DNA from: Steroidobacteraceae bacterium
GTDB lineage: Bacteria > Pseudomonadota > Gammaproteobacteria > Steroidobacterales > Steroidobacteraceae
Length of the DNA stretch: 64,000 nucleotides
Direction of reading: 5' to 3'
Assembly (NCBI GenBank): GCA_019187185.1
Contig: JABAQU010000001.1
Span: forward strand, 62,001-126,000
The notes beneath the pieces were generated by a model. That model worked only from the letters and a program-made list of their open reading frames with translations. It did no database searches and was not told where the DNA came from. Below are positions 8,353-22,462 of the stretch, piece after piece (the stretch's first letter is position 1; the number at the start of each line of letters is the position of its first letter). A program made the translations under genes and the position numbers.

Positions 8353-9525
8353 ATGACCCATCCATTGAAAGACCAGGCCGCCATCGTCGGCATCGGCGCG
8401 ACGGAGTTCTCCAAGGACTCCGGGCGCAGCGAACTGCAGCTCGCGGTGGAAGCGATCAAGGCGGCGCTCGACGACGCAGGCCTCAGCACGCGTGATGTCG
8501 ACGGCCTGTCCACGTTCACGATGGACAAGAACCCCGAGATCGAGATCTTCCGCAATCTCGGCGGCAAGGATCTCAAGTTCTTCAGCCGCATCGAGTACGG
8601 CGGCGGGGGCGCGTGCGCGCCGGTCCACCAGGCCGCGATGGCCGTGCACAGCGGCGTCGCCGACGTCGTGGTGTGCTATCGCGCGATGAACGAGCGCTCG
8701 CTGTACCGCTTCGGTTCGGCCTACGTGCCGCCCCCGATGCCGACGGCCGATGTCGCGACGTTCAGTTGGACCATGCCCTTCGGTCTCGTGACGCCGGCGT
8801 CCTGGGTGGCGATGGCCGCGCAGCGCTACATGCACGACTTCGGCGCGACCACCGAGGACTTCGGTCGCGTGAGCGTCGCGGGGCGCAGGATGGCGGCGAA
8901 CAACCCGAAGGCATGGTTCTACCGAAAGCCGATCACGCTCGCTGATCACCAGGCCTCACGCTGGATCGTCGAGCCGCTGCGGCTGCTCGATTGCTGCCAG
9001 GAATCCGACGGCGCCGTCGCGATCGTCGTGACACGCGCCGATCGTGCGCGACAGCTGAAGCAGAAGCCGGTGCTGATCCGCGCAGCGGCGCAGGGCGCCT
9101 GCGACGACCAGATGAACATGACGAGCTTCTACCGCAAGGACATTTCCGCGCTGTCGGAAATGCGCCTCGTCGCGACCCAGCTCTATGCGATGGCGGGCAT
9201 CGGCCCGAAGGACATCCAGACGGCCATCCTCTACGATCATTTCTCGCCGTTCGTGCTGCCGCAGCTCGAAGTCTTCGACTTCTGCAAGCGCGGCGAAGCG
9301 AAGGACTTCGTTCGCGACGGCCAGATCGATCTCGGCGGGCGCCTGCCCGTCAACACCAACGGCGGGCAGCTCGGCGAGGCCTACATCCATGGCGTTAACG
9401 GCATCGCCGAGGCGGTGCGCCAGGTGCGCGGCACTTCCGTGAACCAGGTGAAGGATGTCGAGCACGTGCTCGTCACGGCCGGTACCGGCGTGCCGACGAG
9501 CGGGCTGATCCTCGCAGCGGCCTGA
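8353..9525 (+). CDS. Ltp2-like thiolase-fold retro-aldolase (side-chain cleavage)
   Basis: A 390-residue thiolase-superfamily protein of the non-thiolytic lipid-transfer-protein type. The usual nucleophilic cysteine position is part of a Gly-rich stretch (YGGGGACAP, residues 82-90). Tyr294 (AILYDHFSP) and Tyr344 (GEAYIHG) fall exactly at the numbers reported for the catalytic tyrosines of actinobacterial Ltp2, which splits 17-hydroxy-3-oxo-pregnene-20-carboxyl-CoA into androstenedione and propionyl-CoA when bound to ChsH2's DUF35 domain. With the two genes before it, it forms the complete hydratase-aldolase triad. The gene is followed by a GC hairpin and a 219-bp gap, so it probably ends the 6918-9525 transcription unit. 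Confidence 0.88.
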   Translation: MTHPLKDQAAIVGIGATEFSKDSGRSELQLAVEAIKAALDDAGLSTRDVDGLSTFTMDKNPEIEIFRNLGGKDLKFFSRIEYGGGGACAPVHQAAMAVHSGVADVVVCYRAMNERSLYRFGSAYVPPPMPTADVATFSWTMPFGLVTPASWVAMAAQRYMHDFGATTEDFGRVSVAGRRMAANNPKAWFYRKPITLADHQASRWIVEPLRLLDCCQESDGAVAIVVTRADRARQLKQKPVLIRAAAQGACDDQMNMTSFYRKDISALSEMRLVATQLYAMAGIGPKDIQTAILYDHFSPFVLPQLEVFDFCKRGEAKDFVRDGQIDLGGRLPVNTNGGQLGEAYIHGVNGIAEAVRQVRGTSVNQVKDVEHVLVTAGTGVPTSGLILAAA

Positions 9526-9546
9526 GCGGCGGGTAGCCCCCGCCGC
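9526..9546 (+). terminator. GC-rich hairpin after the aldolase stop codon
   Basis: An 8-bp perfect stem, GCGGCGGG pairing with CCCGCCGC, begins directly after the TGA. It has no T-run behind it, so it may be a weak or factor-assisted terminator, or only an mRNA-stabilising stem. Confidence 0.4.
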
Positions 9547-9561
9547 GAGAAACGGGGCGCA

Positions 9562-9581
9562 GATTTGATCTGGATCAAATC
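9562..9581. promoter_or_regulatory. FNR/ANR-type binding site in the promoter gap before the alcohol dehydrogenase
   Basis: A perfect 9+9 bp inverted repeat with a 2-bp centre contains TTGAT-CTGG-ATCAA (9565-9578), the full FNR/ANR/CRP-FNR consensus TTGATN4ATCAA. It sits 164 bp before the GTG of the gene at 9745, in the only sizeable gap of the catabolic island. If it acts as a class II activator site centred near -41.5, transcription would start near 9613, with the T-rich stretch 9601-9608 as -10 region. The gap also holds a second, smaller inverted repeat (CTCATC-N6-GATGAG, 9641-9658). Control of the downstream molybdenum hydroxylase operon by low oxygen is the natural reading. Confidence 0.65.
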
Positions 9582-9744
9582 CTGAGCCACCAAACAGTTG
9601 TCTTTTTAAGGAAACTCTGGATCACCAGGGTCTGCAACGACTCATCTGAATTGATGAGCGGGTATCTACGTAAGGCGCACCCAGCTTCCATACGTATTAT
9701 CCGGCACACCGTGTCGCGAGGCACGCGGCCTCCGGAGGGGTGAG

Positions 9745-10830
9745 GTGAAGGCTCTCGTCGCGCTCGAGCTGAACAGGCTCTCGGTTGAGCAGGTCGACAT
9801 CGAGCCGCCGCGTGCGGGCGAAGTGCTCGTGCGCATGAAGGCGGCCGGCGTGTGCCACTCGGACCTCTCGGTGGCGAACGGCACGGTTCCCATGCCGCTG
9901 CCGATGGTGCTCGGTCACGAGGGTGCAGGGGTTGTCACCGAAGTGGGACCAGGCGTCACGAACGTGGCGGCCGGCGATCACGTGGTGCTCTCGTTCGTGC
10001 CGGCCTGTGGCAGCTGCTGGTTCTGCGAGCACAAGGAGCCGCACCTGTGCGTGCACTGTGACGCCTCGGGGCGCATGTGGGACGGCACCACGCGATTGCG
10101 CCTCGGCAAACAGGAACTCGGCAGCATGTCCCAGCTCGGCTGCCTCGCCGAGTACGCGGTCGTGCCGGCGGCGAACGTGGTGTCGATCGATCGCGCGATT
10201 CCGTTTCCCGCCGCCGCACTCGTCGGCTGCGCGGTGATGACCGGTGTCGGTGCCGTCGCGAATACCGCGCAGGTCACGGCGGGCTCGACCGTGGCGATCT
10301 TCGGTTGCGGTGGCGTCGGGCTGGCCGCCGTCCAGGGCGCACGGCTCGTCGGTGCGAAGCAGATCATCGCGGTCGATCTCGCCCGCAACAAGCTCGATTA
10401 CGCGCAGGGCTTCGGCGCGACCGACCTGGTCGACGCAAACGATGATCCGGTCGCGGCCGTGAAGGCGCTCACCGGTGGGCTTGGCGTCGATTACAGCTTC
10501 GAGATGACCGGGCGCCCTGCGGTGATGGAGCAGGCGTACGCGGCCGCGCGGCGCGGCGGGTCCGTGTGCATCGTCGGGGTGGGCCGCTATACGGAGGCCG
10601 TGCAGTTCAATGCCCTGCTGCTCGCGAGCGAGGGCAAGCGCATCACGGGCTGCTTCTACGGCAACGCGAATTTCCGTGCGGACATGCCGAACCTGCTCGC
10701 GCTGTATCGCGGCGGGCGGCTCGATCTCGACGGGCTGATCACTCGCACGTATCGCATCGGCGAGGCGCCCCGGGCATTCGAGGATCTCGAGGCCGGCCGC
10801 AATGCGCGCGGCCTGGTGCTGTTCGACTGA
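9745..10830 (+). CDS. Zinc-dependent medium-chain alcohol dehydrogenase
   Basis: A 361-residue MDR/ADH protein starting at GTG 9745 behind a strong GGAGGGG ribosome site. Catalytic zinc ligands Cys37, His58 (in GHEGAG) and Cys162 are present, as are the four structural-zinc cysteines Cys88, Cys91, Cys94 and Cys102, and the NAD-binding GCGGVG at 187-192. It should oxidise a primary or secondary alcohol with NAD. It is the first gene after the FNR-type site and is followed at 23-bp distance by an SDR gene; the run continues to the aldehyde dehydrogenase at 22462. Oxidation of the alcohol arising from molybdenum-enzyme hydroxylation is the inferred role. Confidence 0.92.
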   Translation: MKALVALELNRLSVEQVDIEPPRAGEVLVRMKAAGVCHSDLSVANGTVPMPLPMVLGHEGAGVVTEVGPGVTNVAAGDHVVLSFVPACGSCWFCEHKEPHLCVHCDASGRMWDGTTRLRLGKQELGSMSQLGCLAEYAVVPAANVVSIDRAIPFPAAALVGCAVMTGVGAVANTAQVTAGSTVAIFGCGGVGLAAVQGARLVGAKQIIAVDLARNKLDYAQGFGATDLVDANDDPVAAVKALTGGLGVDYSFEMTGRPAVMEQAYAAARRGGSVCIVGVGRYTEAVQFNALLLASEGKRITGCFYGNANFRADMPNLLALYRGGRLDLDGLITRTYRIGEAPRAFEDLEAGRNARGLVLFD

Positions 10831-10853: not shown

Positions 10854-11630
10854 GTGAAAACGGGCAAGACGCTGTTCGACTTGACCGGCAAGGTGTGCCT
10901 CGTGACAGGCGCCAATCGCGGGCTCGGGCGCGCCATCGCGATCGGGCTGGCCGAAGCGGGCGGCGATGTCGTGGTGGCGTGTCGCGACCCCGTCGGCGGC
11001 GCGGCGGTCGCACGCGAGATCGAGGCCCGGGGTCGCCGCGCACTCGCCGTGCCCTGCGACATCGGCCGGTGGCCGGATATCGACGCGCTGGTGAGCACGA
11101 TTTATGAGCACTTCGGGCGTTGCGACGTGCTCGTGAACAACGCGGGCATCGCGCACGATCTGCTGCCGATCGCGAACGTCGACGAGGCGATGTTCGACCG
11201 GTTCTTTCAGGTGAACACGAAGGGGCCGATGCACCTGGCGAGCCTCGTGGCGCAGCGCATGGCGCAGGGCGGGGGCGGCTCGATCGTCAACATCGTGACC
11301 TTCGGCGCCGTGAAGGCGGGCGGGTTCCTGTCCATGTACTGCGCAAGCAAGGCGGCGATGCGCTCACTCAGCCGCGTCATGGCCGAGGAATGGGCGCCGC
11401 AGGGCATCCGCGTCAATGCCATCGCCCCGGGTCCTTTCCGCACCGACATGCTGGAAGGTCTCGCCGAAGGCACGGATGGCTTCATGGAGTACACGATCCA
11501 GACGACGGTGCTGAAGCGCATCGCGGAGCCCGAGGAGATCGTCGGCCCCGTGGTCTTTCTCGCGAGCGAGGCGTCGAGTTTCGTCACGGGCCAGACGCTC
11601 GCGGTCTGCGGGGGAGGCCTCAGCCTGTGA
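10854..11630 (+). CDS. SDR-family dehydrogenase/reductase
   Basis: A 258-residue classical SDR. It starts at GTG 10854; the overlapping ATG one base frame away is followed at once by a stop. Motifs are TGANRGLG (cofactor), NNAG, and YCASK (Tyr-x3-Lys) with an upstream Thr/Ser region, then a normal C-terminal CGGGLSL end. It resembles gluconate/3-oxoacyl or hydroxysteroid dehydrogenases; substrate specificity cannot be read from sequence. Its TGA overlaps the GTG start of the acyl-CoA synthetase, so the two are translationally coupled. Confidence 0.9.
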   Translation: MKTGKTLFDLTGKVCLVTGANRGLGRAIAIGLAEAGGDVVVACRDPVGGAAVAREIEARGRRALAVPCDIGRWPDIDALVSTIYEHFGRCDVLVNNAGIAHDLLPIANVDEAMFDRFFQVNTKGPMHLASLVAQRMAQGGGGSIVNIVTFGAVKAGGFLSMYCASKAAMRSLSRVMAEEWAPQGIRVNAIAPGPFRTDMLEGLAEGTDGFMEYTIQTTVLKRIAEPEEIVGPVVFLASEASSFVTGQTLAVCGGGLSL

Positions 11631-13372
11631 ACGCCGCGACGGTCCCGAGCCGGGAGGACACGCAGCGCAGGCTCGACGTGCTCTCGGCCGCCGTGCTGCG
11701 GCACACGCCCGAGCAGGCCCTGACCGTCACGGATCGCTTCGAGGCGCTCGCAGCCGCGCATCCGGAGCGTACGTTCCTCGTCTGGGGCGATCGCGCCATC
11801 AGTTACGGTGAGGCCAATTGCGCGATGAACCGCCACGCGCACTTCGCGCGCGCGCAGGGCCTCGCGCCCGGCGATACCGTGGCGGTCATGGTCGAAAACC
11901 GGCCGGAGTTCCTCTACCTCTGGTTCGGTCTCGCGAAGATCGGCTGCGTCCCGGCACTGCTGAATACGCATATCGGCGGCGCGGCCCTGCAGCACGCGGC
12001 CGGCGCCGCGACGAAAAGTCGCGCCCTCTTCATCGGCGAGGAGTGCCTCGCGCAACTCGCGACCGTGGGCGGCGCCGCAGGCATGCCCGTACCCGTCCAC
12101 AGGCTCGGAGGCGAAGGCGGGATCGAGTCCGCGCTCCGGCAGGCCGATGCGGAGAATCCACCACCGGCACTGCGCGCGGACGTGCGCGGCGAGAGCAGCT
12201 TCTGCCTCGTCTTTACCTCGGGAACCACGGGGCTGCCCAAGGCGGCCGTGATCACGCATGCGCGCTGGCTCGGCGTCGGTGAGGGTTGGACAGCGCTCTT
12301 CAATCACGGTGCAGGTGATGTCTTCTATTGCGTACTGCCGCTCTATCACGTGGCGGCCGGCATGTCGCTGCTGTCGCAGGTGCTCGCCTGCGGAGGCCGG
12401 ATGGTGCTGCGCCCCCGCTTCAGCGCGAGCCGCTTCTGGGACGATGTGCGTCGCCACGGCGTCACGGTGACCCAGTACAGCGGCGAGATGTGCCGCTACC
12501 TCGTCAATCAGCCGCCGCGACCCGACGATCGCAACCATACGCTGCGCATGATGTCGGGCGCCGGCGTCAACCGCGACGTCTGGGTCCGCTTCCAGGAGCG
12601 CTTTGCCGTGCCACACCTCATCGAGGGTTATGGCGGCACCGAGATCAACGCCGGACTGATGAATCTCGATGGACCGGTCGGCAGCTGCGGACGCATCCCG
12701 TTCAGGGAGCGCAGCAACGTGCGGCTCGTACGCTGCGATCCTGATACCGGGGAGCATCTGCGCAGCGCCGATGGAACGCTGATCGAGTGTGCGCCCGGCG
12801 AGGTTGGGGAGTTGATCGCCCTGATCGTGAGGTTGCCCGGGATTGCGGCCGGGCGCTTCGACGGTTATGCCGACCCGGAGGCGACCGAGCGCAAGATCCT
12901 GCGCAATGTGTTTGCGCCCGGGGACGCGTGGTTTCGCAGCGGCGATCTCTTTCGACGCGACGCGGACGACTACTACTGGTTCGTCGACCGGACCGGCGAC
13001 ACTTATCGCTGGAAGAGCGAGAACGTTTCGACGACCGAAGTGACCGAAGCGCTCGGCGACTTTCCCGGCCTCGAATCGCTGACGGTGTATGGCGTCGAAG
13101 TCCCCGGGGAGGAAGGTCGTGCCGGCATGGCGGCCATCGCGATGAGTCCGGGCGTGCCGTTCGACCCGCAAGCCTTCTGCGAGCTGGCACGGGCGCGCCT
13201 GCCGTCCTACGCGATACCCGTGTTCGTGCGTCTGCTGCGCGAAGCCGACCTGACCTCCACGTTCAAGCCGCGCCGGACGGACCTGCAGAAACTCGGGATC
13301 GAGCCGGGTCCGCGCGCTGACCCTGTCTACGTGCTCGACATGACGGCGCGCACTTACGTGCCGAGGAGTTGA
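11627..13372 (+). CDS. FATP/very-long-chain type acyl-CoA synthetase
   Basis: A 581-residue AMP-forming ligase starting at GTG 11627. The ATP/AMP motif is FTSGTTGLPKAAV near residue 195, the adenylate-binding segment is EGYGGTE, and the C-terminal hinge carries GDTYRWKSENVSTTEV, the signature that separates the FATP / very-long-chain / bile-acid CoA ligase group (also mycobacterial FadD17/FadD19) from ordinary FadD. This group activates steroid side-chain carboxylates and long branched acids. It is placed between dehydrogenases and the molybdenum hydroxylase subunits, fitting CoA activation of the acid made from the hydroxylated side chain. Four bases separate its stop from the next start. 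Confidence 0.9.
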   Translation: MNAATVPSREDTQRRLDVLSAAVLRHTPEQALTVTDRFEALAAAHPERTFLVWGDRAISYGEANCAMNRHAHFARAQGLAPGDTVAVMVENRPEFLYLWFGLAKIGCVPALLNTHIGGAALQHAAGAATKSRALFIGEECLAQLATVGGAAGMPVPVHRLGGEGGIESALRQADAENPPPALRADVRGESSFCLVFTSGTTGLPKAAVITHARWLGVGEGWTALFNHGAGDVFYCVLPLYHVAAGMSLLSQVLACGGRMVLRPRFSASRFWDDVRRHGVTVTQYSGEMCRYLVNQPPRPDDRNHTLRMMSGAGVNRDVWVRFQERFAVPHLIEGYGGTEINAGLMNLDGPVGSCGRIPFRERSNVRLVRCDPDTGEHLRSADGTLIECAPGEVGELIALIVRLPGIAAGRFDGYADPEATERKILRNVFAPGDAWFRSGDLFRRDADDYYWFVDRTGDTYRWKSENVSTTEVTEALGDFPGLESLTVYGVEVPGEEGRAGMAAIAMSPGVPFDPQAFCELARARLPSYAIPVFVRLLREADLTSTFKPRRTDLQKLGIEPGPRADPVYVLDMTARTYVPRS

Positions 13373-13376
13373 AGCG

Positions 13377-14033
13377 ATGCTCGCGAAACGTATCGACATC
13401 GGAGCCGACACGCTCGGAGACCCGGCTGCCGCGTTCTGGGGACGGTTCCCCGCGCGCAAGGTGTCGCTCGTGCCGACGCCCGTCGGCCTGCAGAACTCGA
13501 AGTATGTGCTGGCCAAGTGGCGCGACGGCGAGTATGGGCATGCGCGTGCCGCCGGGCTGCAGTGCGTGCACAACGGCACGGAGATCGCATTCCGCCTCGA
13601 ATGGGAGTGCGAGAAGGCGGCGGCTTCGGTCATCGACAACGATCACTTCGCCGACGCCGCGGCGCTGCTCTTTCCGCTGTCCGATCTCGCGCCGCTGATC
13701 ATGGGGGCGGAAGGCGCGCCGGTGAGCATCTGGCACTGGCGGGCGGATCGCCCGAAGGCTGCACGCCTCAATGTCGCGACGGGCATCGGCACGTCGAGCC
13801 TCACGAGGAACGCCACGACACCGGTCGAAACGAAGGCCGTGCACCACGGCGGCCGCTGGGCCCTCGTGTACCGCCGCGCGCTCGAAGCCAGACTGCCCGC
13901 GGATGACGCAGCGAAGTTCACGCCGGGCGGCCATCACCGTCTCGCGGTCGCGGTGTGGAGCGGCGCGAACGCCGAGCGCGCTGGCTTGAAGGCGTACTCG
14001 CCCGAGTGGGTGGAACTGGAACTGGAGGCCTGA
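13377..14033 (+). CDS. Heme b-binding gamma subunit of a type II DMSO-reductase-family dehydrogenase
   Basis: A 218-residue protein of the ethylbenzene-dehydrogenase-related heme domain family. The PLIMGAEGAPVSIWHWRAD segment matches the conserved beta-sandwich region; in ethylbenzene dehydrogenase a Met and a Lys bind heme b, and Met and Lys candidates are present here. The gamma subunit passes electrons from the iron-sulfur subunit to a periplasmic cytochrome. I see no Sec or Tat signal at the N-terminus (MLAKRIDIGADTLG), so export would have to ride on the Tat signal of the alpha subunit. A GAGGAG ribosome site lies at 13363-13368. The gene order gamma-beta-alpha is the reverse of ebdABC or ddhAB. 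Confidence 0.85.
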   Translation: MLAKRIDIGADTLGDPAAAFWGRFPARKVSLVPTPVGLQNSKYVLAKWRDGEYGHARAAGLQCVHNGTEIAFRLEWECEKAAASVIDNDHFADAAALLFPLSDLAPLIMGAEGAPVSIWHWRADRPKAARLNVATGIGTSSLTRNATTPVETKAVHHGGRWALVYRRALEARLPADDAAKFTPGGHHRLAVAVWSGANAERAGLKAYSPEWVELELEA

Positions 14034-14038
14034 TCGCA

Positions 14039-15145
14039 ATGGATTCCAAGGAAATCGCCGCCTGGCAGGTCGGACGCGAGATCGGCGGCGAGATCGTGCG
14101 CCCGAAGCGCCAGCTCGCCATGGTGTTCGACCTCAACAAGTGCCTTGGCTGTCACACCTGTTCCATCGCCTGCAAGACGCAGTGGACGCGCGAGGAGGGC
14201 ATGGAGGGCATGTGGTGGAACGTCGTCAACACGGTGCCCGGCCAGGGCACGCCGAAGGGCTGGGAGGCGATGGGCGGTGGGTTCACGCCGAACGGCAACG
14301 CCCGCCCGAGCCGCATCCCGGGGCGTGAAGAGTTCGGGGATGCGTGGCAGTTCAACCAGAGCGAAGTCCTCTACGAAGGCGCGGGCAAGGAAGCGCACCT
14401 GACGCCGAAGAACTTCAAGGGCGAGAAGCCCTCCTGGGGACCGAACTGGGAAGAGGACCAGGGCGCCGGCGAGTACCCGAACTCCTACTTCTTCTACTTC
14501 CCGCGGATGTGCAACCACTGCACGCATCCGGCCTGCCTCGAGGCCTGCCCGCGCGGCGCGATCCACAAGCGCGAGCAGGACGGGATCGTGCTGATCGACG
14601 ACCAGAAGTGCAAGGGCTACCGCTTCTGCATGGAAGCCTGCCCGTACAAGCGCATCTACTACAACCATGTGCGGCTGGTCTCGCAGAAGTGCATCTTCTG
14701 CTTCCCGCGCATCGAGCAGGGCGTGGCGCCGGCCTGCGCGCGCCAGTGCCCGGGCCGCCTGCGCTTCGTCGGCTATCTCGACGACGAGAAAGGGCCGATC
14801 AACAAGCTCGTTGCGCAGTGGAAGGTCGCGTTGCCGCTGCACGAGGAGTTCGGCACCCAGCCGAACGTCTACTACGTTCCGCCGCTCTCGCCGCCGAAGC
14901 TCGATGCCGACGGCAACCCGATTCCGAACGAGCCGCGCATCCCGCTCGGGTATCTCGAGAGCCTGTTCGGGCCCCGCGTCAGGGACGCGCTCGCGGTCGT
15001 CGAGGCGGAAAAGGCGAAGCGCTCGCGCGGCGAGCCGTCCGAGCTGATGGACATCCTGATCGGCTACAAGTGGCCCGACGACCTGTTCCCGGACTTCACG
15101 AAAGACCCGGCGACGCTGCATCGGGGAGGAGAGGGCGATGCCTGA
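14039..15145 (+). CDS. Iron-sulfur beta subunit of molybdenum dehydrogenase
   Basis: A 368-residue ferredoxin-like subunit with four cysteine groups as in NarH, DdhB and EbdB: CLGCHTCSIAC (from Cys35), CNHCTHPACLEACP, CKGYRFCMEACPY and CIFCFPRIEQGVAPACARQCPG. In the third group an aromatic residue replaces a cysteine (C-x-G-Y), the mark of the [3Fe-4S] cluster of this family; the others bind [4Fe-4S]. It relays electrons from the molybdenum subunit to the heme subunit. ATG 14039 is chosen because conserved sequence begins soon after and a GGAGG lies upstream. Its last 8 bases overlap the alpha-subunit start, indicating coupled translation. Confidence 0.93.
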   Translation: MDSKEIAAWQVGREIGGEIVRPKRQLAMVFDLNKCLGCHTCSIACKTQWTREEGMEGMWWNVVNTVPGQGTPKGWEAMGGGFTPNGNARPSRIPGREEFGDAWQFNQSEVLYEGAGKEAHLTPKNFKGEKPSWGPNWEEDQGAGEYPNSYFFYFPRMCNHCTHPACLEACPRGAIHKREQDGIVLIDDQKCKGYRFCMEACPYKRIYYNHVRLVSQKCIFCFPRIEQGVAPACARQCPGRLRFVGYLDDEKGPINKLVAQWKVALPLHEEFGTQPNVYYVPPLSPPKLDADGNPIPNEPRIPLGYLESLFGPRVRDALAVVEAEKAKRSRGEPSELMDILIGYKWPDDLFPDFTKDPATLHRGGEGDA

Positions 15146-18038
15146 GAAGATCTCGCGCCGCGCGCTCATTGCGACGGCAGGCGGCGGCGCCGCGGTGCTC
15201 ACGCTCGGTTACCTCGGATGGCGGTCGGGCCGCAACGGCGCACCGGTCACTGCGGGCGTCGGGGTGCCCCCGCCACCGGCGGCGCCCGCCGTCGCCTACC
15301 AGAGCTTCGAGGACATCTGGCGCGCGAAATGGCGCTGGGACAGCGTCGCCAAGGGCACGCACTTCGTGAACTGCTGGTACCAGCGAGGCTGCAACTGGAA
15401 CGTCTACGTCAAGAACGGCATCGTGTGGCGCGAGGAGCAGTCCGGCACCTACGAGCCGATCGATCCGAAGATCCCCGACTACAACCCGCGGGGCTGCCAG
15501 AAGGGCGCCTGCTATTCCGAGCGCATGTACGACGGGGCGCGGATGCGCCATCCGCTGAAGCGGGCCGGGGCGCGCGGCGACGGCAAGTGGACGCGCGTCA
15601 GCTGGGACGAAGCGCTCACCGACATTGCCGACCGGATCATCGACGCGATGGTCTCGAAGGAAGGACCGGATTCGGTGGTGTGGGACCAGGGCACCGCGCA
15701 GACCAACGGCGGCGCGGGCTTTGCGATGATGCGCACGTCGCTGGTGCTCGACACGCCCGTGCTCGACGTCAACACCGAGATCGGCGACCACCGTCCCGGC
15801 TTCTGCGTGACCACGGGCAAGATGGTCCACTGCAGTTCCGCTGACGATGTGTTCCACGCCGACCTGGTGCTGATCTGGGGCGGCAACCCGATCTACACGC
15901 AGATCCCGCAGGCGCACTTCATCACCGAGGCGCGCTACAACGGGGCGCGCATCATCACGATCGCGCCGGACTATTCGGCGTCGGCCGTGCACGCGGACCA
16001 GTGGGTGCCGGTGAAGGTCGGGACCGATGCCGCGCTCGCGCTCGCCATGGCGCAAGTGATGATCGAGGAAGGACTCGTCGCGCGCCGCTACGTGCAGGAG
16101 CAGACCGACCTGCCGCTGCTGACGCGCGTGGACAACGGCCGCTTCCTCCGCGGGTCGGACCTCGAAAAGGACGGCGCGGACGACCGTTTCTTCATCTTCG
16201 ACAAGGCGCGCAAGGAGCGGCGCGAGGTGTCGAAGAAGACGCTCGATCTCGGCGACAGCGATCCGGCGCTCGAAGGCGAGTTCGAGATCGACACCTGGCA
16301 GGGCAAGGTCAAGGTGCGCCCGGTCTTCGCGCAGCTGCGCGAGCATCTCGCACAGTACACGCCGGAGAAGGCGGCCGAGGTCTGCGGTGTCCCGCCCGCG
16401 ACGATCCGCCAGCTCGCCCGCAGCCTCGCGAAGGCGCGCGCCGCGACCTGCATCTCGCAGTCGAACTTCTCCAAGTACTACCACGGCGTCGAGATGGAGC
16501 GGGCGCAGCTCCTGTGCTTCGCGCTCGCCGGGCAGATGGGGCGCAAAGGGGCGGGCTACATGTCGTTCCCGTACCTGTCGGTCGATGGCGCCGATGCGCT
16601 CGCGAACCTCAAGGGCAAGGGTCACCCGAAGCTGCAGCTCGCGGCGCTCGGCCTGAAGATGGCGCCGCACTTCATCAAGGAGGGGATGCGCGGCCAGACG
16701 AAGGAAATGATCATCTACGACCTGGCGCGCGAGGAGTTCCGGCACGGCACGTTCCCGCCGAGCCTGCTGTGGCTCTATCACCAGGGCGGCCTCGAGGAGC
16801 TCTACGGCGCCTCCGCGGACTGGGACCCGACGATGAAACGCCCGCTGGCGGCGTTCCTCGAGGAGGCCGAGGAGAAAGGCTGGCAGATGCGCCCGGCCAC
16901 GCGCCCGCGCATCTTCATGGAGGCGGGCGGCAACGTGCTGCGTCGCTTCCGCGGCTACGACGTGATGATCGAGAAGCTGCTGCCGACCCTCGATCTCATG
17001 GTGACCATCGACTGGCGCATGAGCAACACCGCGCTCTACAGCGACTACGTGCTGCCGGCGGCTGCGTGGTACGAGAAGGACGACATCACTTGGGCGACGC
17101 CGCTGTCCCCGTTCTCGCAGGTGATCACGCGCGCGACGAATCCGATCGCCGAGGCGAAGCCCGACTGGGAGATCCATTGTCTGCTGCTGAAGACCATCCA
17201 GCGGCGCGCGGCCGAACGTGGCATCGCGACGTTCCGCGACCGGCATGGCGAGGATCGCAGCTTCGATGTCTACGACCAGTTCACCTTCGGCGGGCGGTAC
17301 ACCGAGGACAACGTCGAGGAGCTGCTCGACCTGATCCTCGACCTGTCCACCAACGTCGGCGATGTCGACTGGCAGAAGCTGAAACAGAAGGGCTTCCAGC
17401 GCTTCACCGCGATCGGTGACAACTCGTTCATGAACATCGGCAATGCCACCGATGTGAAGGAGAACGAGACCATCACCGCGGGCCTCTGGCACACGGAGAA
17501 GAAGATGCCGTGGCCGACGCTGACGCGGCGCATGCAGTTCTGCATCGACCACCCGTTCTACGAGGAGCAGGGCGAACGGCTGCCCGTGCACAAGGATCCG
17601 CCGGACATCGGCGGCAAGTATCCGCTGCACATGACCGGCGGCCACACGCGCTGGTCGATCCATGCGAGCTGGCGCGACCAGAAATACATGCTGCAGCTGA
17701 ATCGCGGCGAACCGTACATCTACATGAGTGTCGAGGACGCGCAGGCGCGCGGGATCAGGGACGGCGATCGCGTGCGCGTGTTCAACGACATCAGCTCGTC
17801 CGAAATGCTCGTCAAGGTGGCCGCGGCCCACCGGCCGGGCCAGGCAACCTGTTATCACGCATGGGAACCGTTCATGTACAAGAACCGCAAGGGCTTCCAG
17901 ACACTGACGCCGAACCCCATCAACCCCGTGCAGCTCGCCGGCGGCTACTACCACCTGCAGCCGATGCCGGCGCTGTTCAGTCCCGGTTCGACCGATCGGG
18001 CGACCCGTGTCGAAATCGAACGCGTGGGGGCCCCATGA
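15138..18038 (+). CDS. Molybdopterin catalytic alpha subunit, ethylbenzene / steroid C25 dehydrogenase type
   Basis: A 966-residue molybdopterin oxidoreductase of type II DMSO-reductase character. It has a Tat signal (ISRRALIATAGGG, residues 5-17), an FS0 cluster site with His75, Cys79, Cys85 and Cys120, the VNTEIGDHRPG segment whose Asp217 fits the Mo ligand of this group, and a C-terminal molybdopterin-dinucleotide domain (HMTGGHTRWSIHASW). The nearest characterised enzymes I recognise by layout are ethylbenzene dehydrogenase and steroid C25 dehydrogenase, which hydroxylate unactivated C-H bonds with water in the periplasm. Neighbouring Ltp2/ChsH genes and FATP-type ligase favour a steroid side chain. 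The C-x5-C spacing in FS0 is wider than the C-x3-C of NarG. The stop overlaps the next ATG. Confidence 0.9.
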   Translation: MPEKISRRALIATAGGGAAVLTLGYLGWRSGRNGAPVTAGVGVPPPPAAPAVAYQSFEDIWRAKWRWDSVAKGTHFVNCWYQRGCNWNVYVKNGIVWREEQSGTYEPIDPKIPDYNPRGCQKGACYSERMYDGARMRHPLKRAGARGDGKWTRVSWDEALTDIADRIIDAMVSKEGPDSVVWDQGTAQTNGGAGFAMMRTSLVLDTPVLDVNTEIGDHRPGFCVTTGKMVHCSSADDVFHADLVLIWGGNPIYTQIPQAHFITEARYNGARIITIAPDYSASAVHADQWVPVKVGTDAALALAMAQVMIEEGLVARRYVQEQTDLPLLTRVDNGRFLRGSDLEKDGADDRFFIFDKARKERREVSKKTLDLGDSDPALEGEFEIDTWQGKVKVRPVFAQLREHLAQYTPEKAAEVCGVPPATIRQLARSLAKARAATCISQSNFSKYYHGVEMERAQLLCFALAGQMGRKGAGYMSFPYLSVDGADALANLKGKGHPKLQLAALGLKMAPHFIKEGMRGQTKEMIIYDLAREEFRHGTFPPSLLWLYHQGGLEELYGASADWDPTMKRPLAAFLEEAEEKGWQMRPATRPRIFMEAGGNVLRRFRGYDVMIEKLLPTLDLMVTIDWRMSNTALYSDYVLPAAAWYEKDDITWATPLSPFSQVITRATNPIAEAKPDWEIHCLLLKTIQRRAAERGIATFRDRHGEDRSFDVYDQFTFGGRYTEDNVEELLDLILDLSTNVGDVDWQKLKQKGFQRFTAIGDNSFMNIGNATDVKENETITAGLWHTEKKMPWPTLTRRMQFCIDHPFYEEQGERLPVHKDPPDIGGKYPLHMTGGHTRWSIHASWRDQKYMLQLNRGEPYIYMSVEDAQARGIRDGDRVRVFNDISSSEMLVKVAAAHRPGQATCYHAWEPFMYKNRKGFQTLTPNPINPVQLAGGYYHLQPMPALFSPGSTDRATRVEIERVGAP

Positions 18039-19243
18039 TCGCCGCAGCGACGATCAGGGATCCGGCGCCGTCGATTCCCGAGGTGAAGCTGACCGAGGGC
18101 GCCCTGCTCGATACCGCGCGCACCAACACCGGGCTCGCCGACTTCGGCGACGAGGCGGACTGGCGCGAGGGGTTCACGCGCCTGGTCGCGAGCCTGAACG
18201 AGGAAGCGCGCCTCAACGCCGTCGGCCGCCTGATCGCGTTCAACGAAGTGCTGCGCCACCTCGAGAACCGGCTGCGGGTCACCGACGACCTCAGGCGTCA
18301 TCCGGAGATCCTCGACGTCGAGATCGTCAAGCCGCTCTTTATGGTCGGCCTGCCGCGCACGGGCTCGACCATCATGCACGACCTGCTGGCGAAGGATCCT
18401 TCTAACCGCGTACCGATGACCTGGGAGTGCCACCTGATGTCGCCGCCGGCGGAGGCGGCGACCTTCGAGACCGATCCCCGCATCGCGATCTGCGAGGCGC
18501 ACTTCGAACGCACGTCCCGCGCGCTGATCCCGGAGTTCCAGGCACTGCACGAGATGGGCGCGCGCCTCGCGCAGGAATGCGTGATGCTGAATGCCTTCGA
18601 CTTCAGGAGCATCATCTTCGCCAATCAGTTCCGCATCCCGGGCTACGAGCGCTGGGTGGAGGAGGCGGACCAGACGTCCGTCTACCGTACCCACAAGCGC
18701 CAGCTCCAGTACATGCAGTGGAGAAATCCCCGCGAACGCTGGGTGCTGAAGAGCGTCGGTTATCACTGGGGGCTCGACGCGATCTGCGACGTCTACCCGG
18801 ACGCGCGCATCGTGATGACCCACCGCGACCCGCTCAAGCTCATCGCCTCGCATTGCTCGCTGGTCTCCATGGCCTGCACGATGGGCAGCGACGAGGTGGA
18901 TCGCTTCGAGATCGGGCAGATATGGGGCCGGTCCTGGGAGGAGGCGATGCGTCGCTGCGTGGCGTTTCGCCGCAGCGACCGGCCGCAGGCGAAAAATGCC
19001 TTCGACATGCATTTCTCCGTGATGCTGCAGGACCAGGTCGGCATGGCTCAGCGCATCTACGATCATTTCGGCATCCCGATGAGCGCGGAGACACTGCAAC
19101 GCATGCACACCTTCATCGAGCGCAATCCGCGCGATCGTCACGGCACCCATCGCTACACGCTCGAGCAGTTCGGTCTCGATCGCTCCCGCGAACACGAGCG
19201 ATATCGCTTCTATCAGGACTTTTTCAAGGTGGCCGAAGAATGA
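18035..19243 (+). CDS. Sulfotransferase-family protein
   Basis: A 402-residue protein of the bacterial sulfotransferase (Sulfotransfer_3-like) family. The PAPS 5'-phosphosulfate loop is GLPRTGSTIMH (residues 105-115), and the 3'-phosphate site is suggested by MTHRDPLKLIASHCSL with its conserved Arg and Ser. Such enzymes move sulfonate from PAPS to a hydroxyl group. Finding one inside a molybdenum-hydroxylase operon is unusual: ATGA overlaps join it to the alpha subunit before it and the DUF1214 gene after it. It might sulfonate a steroid hydroxyl, for example to solubilise or activate it; that is inference. No signal peptide is visible, so it is probably cytoplasmic. Confidence 0.88.
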   Translation: MIAAATIRDPAPSIPEVKLTEGALLDTARTNTGLADFGDEADWREGFTRLVASLNEEARLNAVGRLIAFNEVLRHLENRLRVTDDLRRHPEILDVEIVKPLFMVGLPRTGSTIMHDLLAKDPSNRVPMTWECHLMSPPAEAATFETDPRIAICEAHFERTSRALIPEFQALHEMGARLAQECVMLNAFDFRSIIFANQFRIPGYERWVEEADQTSVYRTHKRQLQYMQWRNPRERWVLKSVGYHWGLDAICDVYPDARIVMTHRDPLKLIASHCSLVSMACTMGSDEVDRFEIGQIWGRSWEEAMRRCVAFRRSDRPQAKNAFDMHFSVMLQDQVGMAQRIYDHFGIPMSAETLQRMHTFIERNPRDRHGTHRYTLEQFGLDRSREHERYRFYQDFFKVAEE

Positions 19244-20322
19244 GCGGCGAGACCCTGGCGAGCGTGCGCGCGTGGGAGGAGTTCTGCGAGCGACTGAAGG
19301 CGGCGGGCGCCGTGCTCGCGCGCCCGACGACACCGCAGGACGATCTCACTCAGGCCGAGGGCCTGCGCAAGCTCGCGCGCATGATCCGCATGGGCCTCGA
19401 GGCGACCCTCGAGTACGGTCACACCGCGTTTCCCGAGGTCTATGCACTCGTCACGCCGACGACGCTGGGGGAGGGCGAGACCTCCGACGCGCGCTACTGC
19501 CAGGCGATGATCGATGGCCGCAGGAGCTACCGACTGAGCGGCCATCGCGGCGAGGCGCCCTTCATCGAGCTCACGGCCTACGCGGGCAAGATCGGGCTCG
19601 ACAGCCACAGCGCGCAGGTCGGCGCGCTCACCGAGCGTGACCTCGCGGTCACGCCCGACGGCCGCTACGAGATCATCCTGTCGCCCGACCCGCATCCCGG
19701 CAACTGGCTTCGCACGACACCGGAGACGAGTTGCCTGTTCATCCGCCAGTACGCGCACGACTGGAGCCGGACCCGGGGCGCGACGTTCGACATCCAGCCG
19801 CTCGGTACCGGGGGTGAGCGACCGAATGTCACGCTCGCCGAGGTCGTCGAGGCGCTGCCGCGCACCGCCGCCTACGTGGCGCGCTCGACAGCCATCTGGG
19901 CCGCCATCGTTGACCAGGCGCGGCAGGCGCCGCCGAACCGCTTCGTGCCGTTCATCGAGAAGGAGCCTTCGCCCGAGATGCCGACCGGGCACCGCTTCTC
20001 GTCGGGGCATTTCCGGCTCGCGCCGGACGAGGGCCTCGAAGTGACCTTCCGGCCGGCGGAGGTACCCTACTGGGGCATGGACATCACGAACTACTGGTTC
20101 GAGCCGATGTCGTACGGCACGCCACGTTCCCACCTCAATAATCGCACCGCCGCGCGCGAGGCCGACGGCTCGACGCGTATCGTGATCGCCGCGCGGCGGC
20201 CCGATGCCCGCAACTGGATCGACACGCGCGGGCACCGCGAGGGCATGATGATGCTGCGCTGGTCGCGTACCGCACTCCCGGTCCCCGCCATCGAGTCGCG
20301 GGTCGTCCGGTTGCCGTCGTGA
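19240..20322 (+). CDS. DUF1214 domain-containing protein
   Basis: A 360-residue protein whose C-terminal third (PYWGMDITNYWFEPMSYGTP, then NNRTAAREADGSTRIVIAAR and a Trp-Ile-Asp-Thr segment) is the DUF1214 beta-sandwich; the first part is mainly helical. DUF1214/DUF1254 proteins recur beside steroid, terpene and alkane degradation genes, but no reaction is established. No signal peptide is seen. The ATG at 19240 overlaps the sulfotransferase TGA, and its own TGA overlaps the GTG of the chaperone, so it is locked inside the operon. Possible roles are substrate binding or handling of a hydrophobic intermediate; neither is shown by the sequence. Confidence 0.8.
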   Translation: MSGETLASVRAWEEFCERLKAAGAVLARPTTPQDDLTQAEGLRKLARMIRMGLEATLEYGHTAFPEVYALVTPTTLGEGETSDARYCQAMIDGRRSYRLSGHRGEAPFIELTAYAGKIGLDSHSAQVGALTERDLAVTPDGRYEIILSPDPHPGNWLRTTPETSCLFIRQYAHDWSRTRGATFDIQPLGTGGERPNVTLAEVVEALPRTAAYVARSTAIWAAIVDQARQAPPNRFVPFIEKEPSPEMPTGHRFSSGHFRLAPDEGLEVTFRPAEVPYWGMDITNYWFEPMSYGTPRSHLNNRTAAREADGSTRIVIAARRPDARNWIDTRGHREGMMMLRWSRTALPVPAIESRVVRLPS

Positions 20323-21023
20323 ATGCGAACCCGGACACCGTGACGAGCCGCGCGGACGCGGGGATGGCGCCCTCCGGCGTGCGCAGCGCGCTCTACGCGC
20401 TGCTGCGGGAGGCCTTCGGCTATCCGCGCGGCGAGCTGCTGGACGCGATCCGCGACGGCGTGGTGGCGCAGAGCCTGCGCCTGCGTGCCGAGGCACTCGA
20501 TCCGCCACTCGGTGAGCCGGTCGACTGGCAGGCGCTGCAGGATGCGGGGGAGGCGCCGGACACGCTCGCCGTGGAATACACGCGGCTCTTCGACCCGGGC
20601 ACTTCGGCGCCGCCGTGCCCGCTGTTCGGAGGTCTCCACGTCGCGCCGCAGATGACCACGATGGAAGAGGTGCTGCGCTTCTACCAGCACTTCGGGCTCG
20701 CGCCCGCGAACACCGGCGGCGAGACACCGGATCACCTCACGGCAGAACTGGAATTCCTGCACGTGCTCGCCTGGGGCGAAACGGACCTGCAGTCGCGCGG
20801 CGAGGATGCCTCGGCGTGGCAGCGCGGGCGGCGCGATTTCATCGCGCGCCACCCGGGGCGCTGGGTGCCGATGCTGCGGGAGAAGCTCGAGCGACAGGCG
20901 CCACCACGTTATTATCGTGCGCTGGTGCGCCTGCTCGAGCAGTGCCTCGATGCCGATCTCGGCCAGCTCGAGGCGCTCCATGGGCCGGCCTCGCGTGAAC
21001 CCCACCGGAGCATGCCCTCATGA
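20319..21023 (+). CDS. TorD-family chaperone for the molybdenum enzyme (EbdD/DdhD-like)
   Basis: A 234-residue all-helical protein starting at GTG 20319. The VEYTRLFDPG and PCPLFGGLHV segments and the later DHLTAELEFLHVLAWGE match the TorD/DmsD/NarJ superfamily signature ExxRLF...P...E-x2-FL-x-L. Such chaperones bind the Tat signal of the Mo subunit and hold it until cofactor and Fe-S clusters are inserted. In ethylbenzene and dimethyl sulfide dehydrogenase operons the equivalent gene (ebdD, ddhD) follows the structural genes; here it is displaced by the sulfotransferase and DUF1214 genes. Start and stop both overlap neighbours by four bases. Confidence 0.9.
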   Translation: MNANPDTVTSRADAGMAPSGVRSALYALLREAFGYPRGELLDAIRDGVVAQSLRLRAEALDPPLGEPVDWQALQDAGEAPDTLAVEYTRLFDPGTSAPPCPLFGGLHVAPQMTTMEEVLRFYQHFGLAPANTGGETPDHLTAELEFLHVLAWGETDLQSRGEDASAWQRGRRDFIARHPGRWVPMLREKLERQAPPRYYRALVRLLEQCLDADLGQLEALHGPASREPHRSMPS

Positions 21024-22462
21024 ACGACATCGATCCCGTCGCCCACTTGCGCGCGGTGCTCGAGCGCCAGCAGGCCGCGCAACTCGCCGAGGGGGTTCCC
21101 GATCACGCCACGCGCATCGACCGGCTCACGCGCCTGGCGGCGCTGCTCACGGAGAACGAGCAGGCGCTGTGCGAATCGTTGCGTGCGGATTTCGGCCAGC
21201 GCTCGCTCGCCAATGCGGCGATGACCGAGATCGCCTTCCCGGTGATGGCGATCAACCACGTGAAAAAGCAGTTGCGCACGTGGATGCGGGACGAGCGTCG
21301 CAAGGTGCCGTTCCTGCCGGCGCTGCTCGGCGCCCGCGCCCGCGTGCGCTACCAGCCGCTCGGCGTCGTCGGCGTGATCGTGCCCTGGAACTTCCCGGTG
21401 AACCTCACCGTGACCCCGCTCACCGATATCCTCGCGGCGGGCAATCGTGCGATGGTGAAGCCCTCGGAGTTCACGCCGCACAACTCGGCGCTGCTCGCGG
21501 AGCTCTTCGCGCGCTATTTCAGCGAGGAGGAGATCGCGGTGTTCCCCGGCGGGCTCGAGGTCGGGGCAGCGTTCTCGGCGCTGCCCTTCGATCACCTCAT
21601 CTTCACCGGCGCCGGCTCGGTTGCCCGGCACGTGATGCGCGCCGCCGCCGACCACCTGGTGCCGGTCACGCTCGAGCTCGGCGGCAAGTCGCCCGTGATC
21701 GTGAGCCGCGAACTGCCCTTCGGGCTCGACCGCGTCGCGACGAGCATGCTCGATTTCAAGATGAGCAACGCCGGGCAGATCTGCATCGCCCCGGATTACG
21801 TATTCGTTCCGGAGGAGTCACTGCGGCCGCTGATCGACGCCCTGCGGCGCGCGTTCGCACGCATGTATCCGCGGCTCAAGGACAACCCCGACTACACGTC
21901 GATCGTCAACGAGCGTCACTACGAACGGCTGAAGGGCTACCGGGACGCCGCGGTGGCGGCAGGCACCGAGGTCATCGAACTCAATCCCGCCGGCGAGGAC
22001 CTGTCCGACCCGGCGGCGCGCCGGATGGCGCCCTGCCTGATCGTGGACCCGGTGGCCGACAGCCCGGTCATGCGCAACGAGATCTTCGGTCCGCTGCTGC
22101 CGATCCTGCCGTATCGGCATGTCGACGAGGCGATCGCCTTCATCAACCGGCGCGACCACCCGCTCGCGCTCTATTATTACGGCCGCCCGGGCAGCGCCGA
22201 ACTCGATCAGGTGCTGTCCCGCACCCAGTCCGGTGGTGTGACCGTGAACGATGTCGCTGCGCATACGGGTTGCGAGAGCCTGCCCTTCGGCGGGGTGGGG
22301 CCGAGCGGCATGGGCGCCTACCATGGCTTCGAGGGCTTCAAGCGCTTCTCGCACGCGCGCGCCGTGTATGTCCAGTCGAGGCTCAGCCTCGCGGACCTGT
22401 TCGGGCTCAGGCCCCCGTACGGACCGCGCTATCGTGCCGTCATCGACCGCATGATGAAGTGA
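21020..22462 (+). CDS. Coniferyl aldehyde dehydrogenase-like ALDH
   Basis: A 480-residue aldehyde dehydrogenase of the class-3/coniferyl-aldehyde group. The catalytic Cys255 lies in SNAGQICIAPDY and the general-base Glu in LELGGKSP; the NAD site is PWNFPVNLTVTPL and the C-terminal motif is LPFGGVGPSGMGAYHG. It oxidises an aldehyde to the acid with NAD(P). As last gene of the 9745-22462 run it can finish the alcohol-aldehyde-acid sequence begun by the zinc alcohol dehydrogenase, giving the substrate for the acyl-CoA synthetase. Its ATG overlaps the chaperone stop (ATGA). Confidence 0.93.
   Translation: MNDIDPVAHLRAVLERQQAAQLAEGVPDHATRIDRLTRLAALLTENEQALCESLRADFGQRSLANAAMTEIAFPVMAINHVKKQLRTWMRDERRKVPFLPALLGARARVRYQPLGVVGVIVPWNFPVNLTVTPLTDILAAGNRAMVKPSEFTPHNSALLAELFARYFSEEEIAVFPGGLEVGAAFSALPFDHLIFTGAGSVARHVMRAAADHLVPVTLELGGKSPVIVSRELPFGLDRVATSMLDFKMSNAGQICIAPDYVFVPEESLRPLIDALRRAFARMYPRLKDNPDYTSIVNERHYERLKGYRDAAVAAGTEVIELNPAGEDLSDPAARRMAPCLIVDPVADSPVMRNEIFGPLLPILPYRHVDEAIAFINRRDHPLALYYYGRPGSAELDQVLSRTQSGGVTVNDVAAHTGCESLPFGGVGPSGMGAYHGFEGFKRFSHARAVYVQSRLSLADLFGLRPPYGPRYRAVIDRMMK

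Follow-up and report, generated by a model that had tools for sequence, protein, structure and literature searches.

Gene content of the locus

The window, that is, the whole 64,000-nucleotide stretch of Steroidobacteraceae DNA analysed here, contains an operon of about ten genes by gene calls, rather than the run of nine given in the original prediction. On the + strand, it opens with a zinc alcohol dehydrogenase (ADH, 9745-10830), followed by an SDR oxidoreductase (10854-11630), an acyl-CoA synthetase of the FadD6/FATP type (11630-13372, start approximate), and the gamma (haem b, 13377-14033), beta (Fe-S, 14060-15145, start approximate) and alpha (Mo, 15138-18038) subunits of an enzyme of the type II DMSO reductase/ethylbenzene dehydrogenase family. 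The + strand run then continues with a PAPS-type sulfotransferase (Sulfotransfer_3, 18035-19243), a DUF1214 protein (19243-20322, start approximate), the delta chaperone of type II DMSO reductases (20319-21023) and an aldehyde dehydrogenase (AldDH, 21020-22462). All parts of an S25DH/EbDH-type system are present, including the three subunits, the delta chaperone and a twin-arginine (TAT)-like signal (SRRALI) on the alpha subunit, whose best solved relative is ethylbenzene dehydrogenase (EbDH, 2IVF). The Mo enzyme stays below the EbDH-specific equivalog cut-offs, and is therefore regarded as a relative of EbDH, not as EbDH itself. Its association with ADH, SDR, CoA ligase and AldDH genes makes an anaerobic role of the operon plausible, and, by analogy with Sterolibacterium (PMC7411048, PMC11061730), the set is that expected for water-dependent oxidation of a side-chain carbon to a CoA ester. 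In addition, the upstream genes, encoding an SCP2-type thiolase (8353-9525, + strand), MaoC and ChsH2-like proteins, fit beta-oxidation of steroid or isoprenoid side chains.

The sulfotransferase (solved relatives 2z6v/2zq5) and DUF1214 genes form a pair (18035-20322) that recurs alongside Mo-hydroxylase genes at about ten related loci (L023, L024, L026, L029, L030, L033, L034, L036, L048 and L074), across which the sulfotransferase is 51-85% identical. For the tertiary alcohol step, a kinase plus a still unidentified C-O lyase has been discussed (PMC8449060); it is possible that the pair replaces both, with the tertiary alcohol being sulfated and then undergoing elimination. The same genome encodes a second alpha subunit, 61% identical (L091:10097-17690, G000:C4), whose neighbours are a divergent TetR gene, with GTATAC-N3-GTATAC, as well as PAPS-forming genes (CysN/C-type with APS kinase, and CysD-like).

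The upstream gap and its candidate promoters

The 219 bp before the operon (9526-9744) contain no gene, and since all genes flanking this gap lie on the + strand, the ADH-first operon is the only plausible target of a regulatory site within it. Within the operon region it is indeed, as described originally, the only long gap, since the other apparent one, 18038-18427, is the start of the sulfotransferase gene and is thereby ruled out as a second promoter region. A GC-rich hairpin lacking a T run directly follows the thiolase stop codon (9526-9546, + strand) and may mark the end of the upstream transcript, and a simple scan of 9400-9900 returned neither a sigma-70 promoter nor a terminator.

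A 20-bp inverted repeat, GATTTGATC-TG-GATCAAATC, occupies 9562-9581 and encloses the FNR/Anr box TTGATCTGGATCAA (9565-9578, centre 9571.5), neither feature being assigned a strand. The two 9-nt arms are perfectly complementary, whereas the 2-nt centre TG is not palindromic, so the earlier term "20-bp perfect palindrome" slightly overstated the symmetry. The claim of a full FNR-family consensus stands, since the box is an exact match to TTGAT-N4-ATCAA, the motif used for the Anr regulon (PMC6588701).

Two sets of promoter-like elements lie between the box and the ADH gene. Nearer to the box, 25-26 nt past it, is a weak candidate -10 (TTTTAA, 3/6, or TTTAAG, 4/6; 9604-9610, + strand), from which transcription would start at about 9613-9617; the spacing resembles that at narG in the same genome, where TATACT stands 25 nt after a box. 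Nearer to the ADH gene is an element (9644-9678, + strand) common to the syntenic operons L023 and, less closely, L093. Its core ACGTANGG (9668-9675) precedes the ADH start by 77-78 bp in all three operons, and it is followed by a -10-like hexamer conserved in position, TATTAT (9695-9700, + strand), with the counterparts TAAGAT in L023 and TAATAT in L093 (common TA-N2-AT). It is plausible that 9644-9700, with TA-N2-AT, forms a core promoter from which transcription starts near 9707, and that start would place the box at about -135, not at -41.5. Position -135 is outside the usual activating positions for FNR. An imperfect inverted repeat, TACGTAAGG and CCATACGTA at 9667-9696, spans the conserved proximal element and is possibly the operator of another regulator. 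A TetR operator of the form GTATAC-N3-GTATAC was not found in the gap.

Rarity of the box in the window and the genome

The exact motif occurs once in the 64-kb window, at 9565-9578, and the only one-mismatch match lies in coding DNA at 21242. Markov models of orders 1-4, trained on the window and on loci of the same genome, predict about 5e-5 exact boxes by chance in the 219-bp gap (7e-5 with the gap's own composition) and about 1e-9 for the 20-bp repeat pattern; the box thus exceeds chance expectation, between genes and upstream of a gene on the correct strand. These expectations were preferred over a reversed-pattern control, AACTANNNNTAGTT, which is under-represented in coding DNA owing to its TAG. 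Of 160 spaced palindromes matched in composition, only the TTGAT one is present in the window, and the 9562-9581 repeat is likewise its sole AT-rich inverted repeat with 9-bp arms and a spacer of at most 8.

Pattern searches across the 3.55-Mb genome, in which 0.5-0.9 exact boxes are expected (Markov orders 1-4), revealed five, four of them intergenic and one clearly inside a gene (sdhB, L004). The scatter of equal palindromes through coding DNA that was to speak against the original prediction is therefore not seen. The relaxed form TTGAYN4RTCAA has 12 sites against 2-3.3 expected, three of them in coding DNA (sdhB, an SDR gene and a ubiE-like methyltransferase gene, L125). Near-consensus boxes stand 61 bp before fnr (TTGACCTGGATCAA) and before ubiU, one relaxed site precedes narG and another lies in a gap beside a coxB-like gene, and a box with the same core as that of the window lies between uspA and hsp20. 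Further FNR-type boxes on G000:C5 (L003 and L120) are located one ahead of a TonB-dependent receptor gene and one between two such genes. An exact box, TTGATCGAGATCAA, is found 36 bp before nadA (L005:1501-1550, G000:C23), an unexpected target encoding quinolinate synthase, an Fe-S enzyme. Matching boxes also adjoin fnr in the relatives L126, L127 and L128. The excess of sites, their gene context and the boxes beside fnr in relatives indicate that FNR very probably makes active use of TTGAT-N4-ATCAA in this clade.

An FNR/Anr-type regulator

The search for an fnr/anr gene was also successful. Among seven cyclic-nucleotide-binding matches in the genome, the protein encoded at L010:1183-1866 (about G000:C21:25077-25760) is of the FNR/Anr type and would be the cognate regulator of such boxes. 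Its N-terminus IACRSCDLYEVC aligns with the ligand motif IHCQDCSISQLC of solved FNR, C11/C14/C20 matching CX2CX5C and a further Cys occupying the fourth-ligand position of the alignment, so a [4Fe-4S] cluster is predicted, and its recognition helix IETVSR corresponds to VETISR, the TTGAT-reading helix of FNR (E..SR). The match to PRK11161 Fnr (E=2e-32) is below the curated NCBIfam cut-off; the best solved relatives are FNR structures (E about 1e-26), and the protein looks like a genuine FNR/Anr. The next gene after fnr is ubiU (anaerobic ubiquinone synthesis), an equivalog above its curated cut-off. Other Crp/Fnr proteins include L007, with a CRP-like SREMAGR helix, and L008, with an HTASR helix that has no Glu; among L007, L008 and L010, only L010 combines the Fe-S cysteines with the E..SR helix.

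Distribution of the box among related loci

Of 200 genomes sampled in the family, only two others contain the same ADH at high identity, L023 (85%) and L093 (84%), and in both the operon order is the same to the extent that the contigs cover it. At the expected place, no box with up to three mismatches is present in either, and the only three-mismatch matches in L093 lie 360-550 bp upstream. The idea that the nearest operons retain the box is accordingly rejected, and the box does not behave as the mark of a conserved regulon member. The L023 genome nevertheless has an FNR orthologue (81% identical), and the incomplete L093 genome yielded none. Transfer of the box together with the upstream thiolase is rejected as well: in other genomes the thiolase orthologues have different downstream neighbours, and neither a box nor an ADH-first operon follows them. 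As the box stretch accompanies neither the thiolase nor the operon elsewhere, the box is either recent or was lost in the relatives. The second Mo-hydroxylase paralogue of the genome (L091) has no box.

More distant loci give a different picture. In 832 kb around related alpha subunits, TTGAYN4RTCAA occurs three times against 1.4 expected, and all three sites are directly upstream of Mo-hydroxylase genes, so that position, not number, is the evidence. The box in L036, TTGATCCATGTCAA, lies 48-75 bp before a gamma-first gene set, and those in L058 and L057 lie 61 bp and 156 bp, respectively, before beta-first sets; as L057 and L058 are close relatives, the three sites count as two further lineages. 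A divergent TetR gene with GTATACAGAGTATAC, an operator of the form seen in L091, stands beside the gamma subunit and adjoins the box in L036 (3547-4308). We tentatively suggest that oxygen-independent Mo-hydroxylase operons may have come under FNR control on more than one independent occasion (in the window, in L036 and in L057/L058).

Proposed oxygen control and alternative explanations

Collectively, the box probably functions as an FNR/Anr site and places the operon under added oxygen control, with an FNR-family activator most likely binding it; the direct link between oxygen and the pathway is an inference from this. Under oxygen limitation, FNR as a [4Fe-4S] dimer would bind TTGATCTGGATCAA and activate the operon that starts with ADH at 9745, leading to synthesis of the water-dependent Mo hydroxylase and of the enzymes converting its product to the CoA ester. 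The simplest geometry would be a class II promoter, with the box at about -41.5, a start at about 9613 and the weak -10 TTTTAA/TTTAAG, whereas the conserved proximal element 9644-9700 would serve as an additional promoter element, probably under another, perhaps substrate-specific, regulator. The oxygen reading of the original prediction gains from the FNR/Anr protein, from the boxes at its own gene and at ubiU, from the small number of exact boxes and from the FNR-type boxes immediately preceding related Mo-hydroxylase operons in other lineages, but the start at about 9613 is not established.

The strongest doubt about FNR control is where transcription starts. The weak -10 is at the right distance for class II geometry, yet the competing conserved -10 would place the box near -135, and the start near 9707 that it implies falls within 9660-9740, the range that, coupled with no oxygen response, was set beforehand as refuting. 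The main promoter could thus be the proximal element, with a start at about 9707 and a different, possibly substrate-responsive regulator, the box being a lineage-specific addition at about -135 of modest or indirect effect. Three syntenic operons, two of them lacking the box, retain the element, its 77-78 bp spacing and the -10-like hexamer, and the box stretch is not common to the relatives of either the thiolase or the operon. However, the element has no -35 match and could itself act as an operator within a longer transcript's leader, and both the quality of the box and its position argue against an idle product of chance; we therefore consider this arrangement a serious but distinctly less probable one. 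The signal itself would depend on which regulator binds. Dnr-type proteins share the TTGAT-N4-ATCAA motif, and the genome encodes further Crp/Fnr proteins (L007 and L008) and a narG with its own box, so a Dnr/NnrR-like, nitric-oxide-responsive regulator might bind here and report nitrogen oxides, not oxygen. This is rather unlikely, given that the Fe-S cysteines and E..SR occur in L010 but not in L007 or L008. Finally, absence of the box from both syntenic relatives and the location of one of the five exact boxes in coding DNA (sdhB) would be in keeping with a chance or relic palindrome devoid of function, but the chance expectations for the gap and for the repeat pattern, the same core between uspA and hsp20 and the independent boxes before related operons make that very improbable.

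Comparison with known systems and implications

The principle of FNR-type control of an anaerobic degradation operon is already known. At the bzd PN promoter of Azoarcus sp. CIB, the FNR-type regulator AcpR acts from a site centred at -41.5, combined with the substrate-specific repressor BzdR (PMC6678401). The window resembles it in that an FNR-family site precedes an operon for degradation in the absence of oxygen. However, bzd encodes a benzoyl-CoA pathway and the window operon a Mo hydroxylase; moreover, in the window binding, the start site and a second regulator are predictions, and the box would be at -135 if the proximal element sets the start. Similarly, the srnABCD selenate reductase operon of Enterobacter cloacae SLD1a-1 has an FNR box before a TAT-exported DMSO-reductase-family enzyme and its chaperone, but this enzyme is a terminal reductase, its box (ttgatgaggattaa) is one mismatch off consensus, and FNR control there is supported by earlier experiments (PMC12724226). 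In gene content, the operon is closest to the steroid C25/C26 dehydrogenases of Sterolibacterium denitrificans and to ethylbenzene dehydrogenase, which share the alpha-beta-gamma type II DMSO-reductase hydroxylase and delta chaperone, and the neighbouring ADH, AldDH and CoA ligase fit side-chain oxidation as in S. denitrificans (PMC7411048, PMC11061730). Unlike those systems, the window operon contains the sulfotransferase/DUF1214 pair. No report of FNR control of steroid C25/C26 dehydrogenase or ethylbenzene dehydrogenase operons was found in the open-access papers searched. S. denitrificans operates this type of pathway under oxic conditions as well (PMC3691188), which calls for caution in assuming that the enzyme is made solely without oxygen.

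Regulation of oxygen-independent degradation of sterol and isoprenoid side chains is almost undocumented in the open-access literature searched, and a defined FNR site, a regulator and two rival starts make the oxygen question directly testable here. The bzd PN precedent shows that oxygen and substrate inputs can be combined (PMC6678401), and the recurring boxes before related operons suggest a shared logic in lineages that have no common promoter. If FNR control was indeed recruited repeatedly, several lineages would gate water-dependent side-chain or alkyl hydroxylation by oxygen, using promoters unrelated to one another, while close relatives would run the same operon without an oxygen gate.
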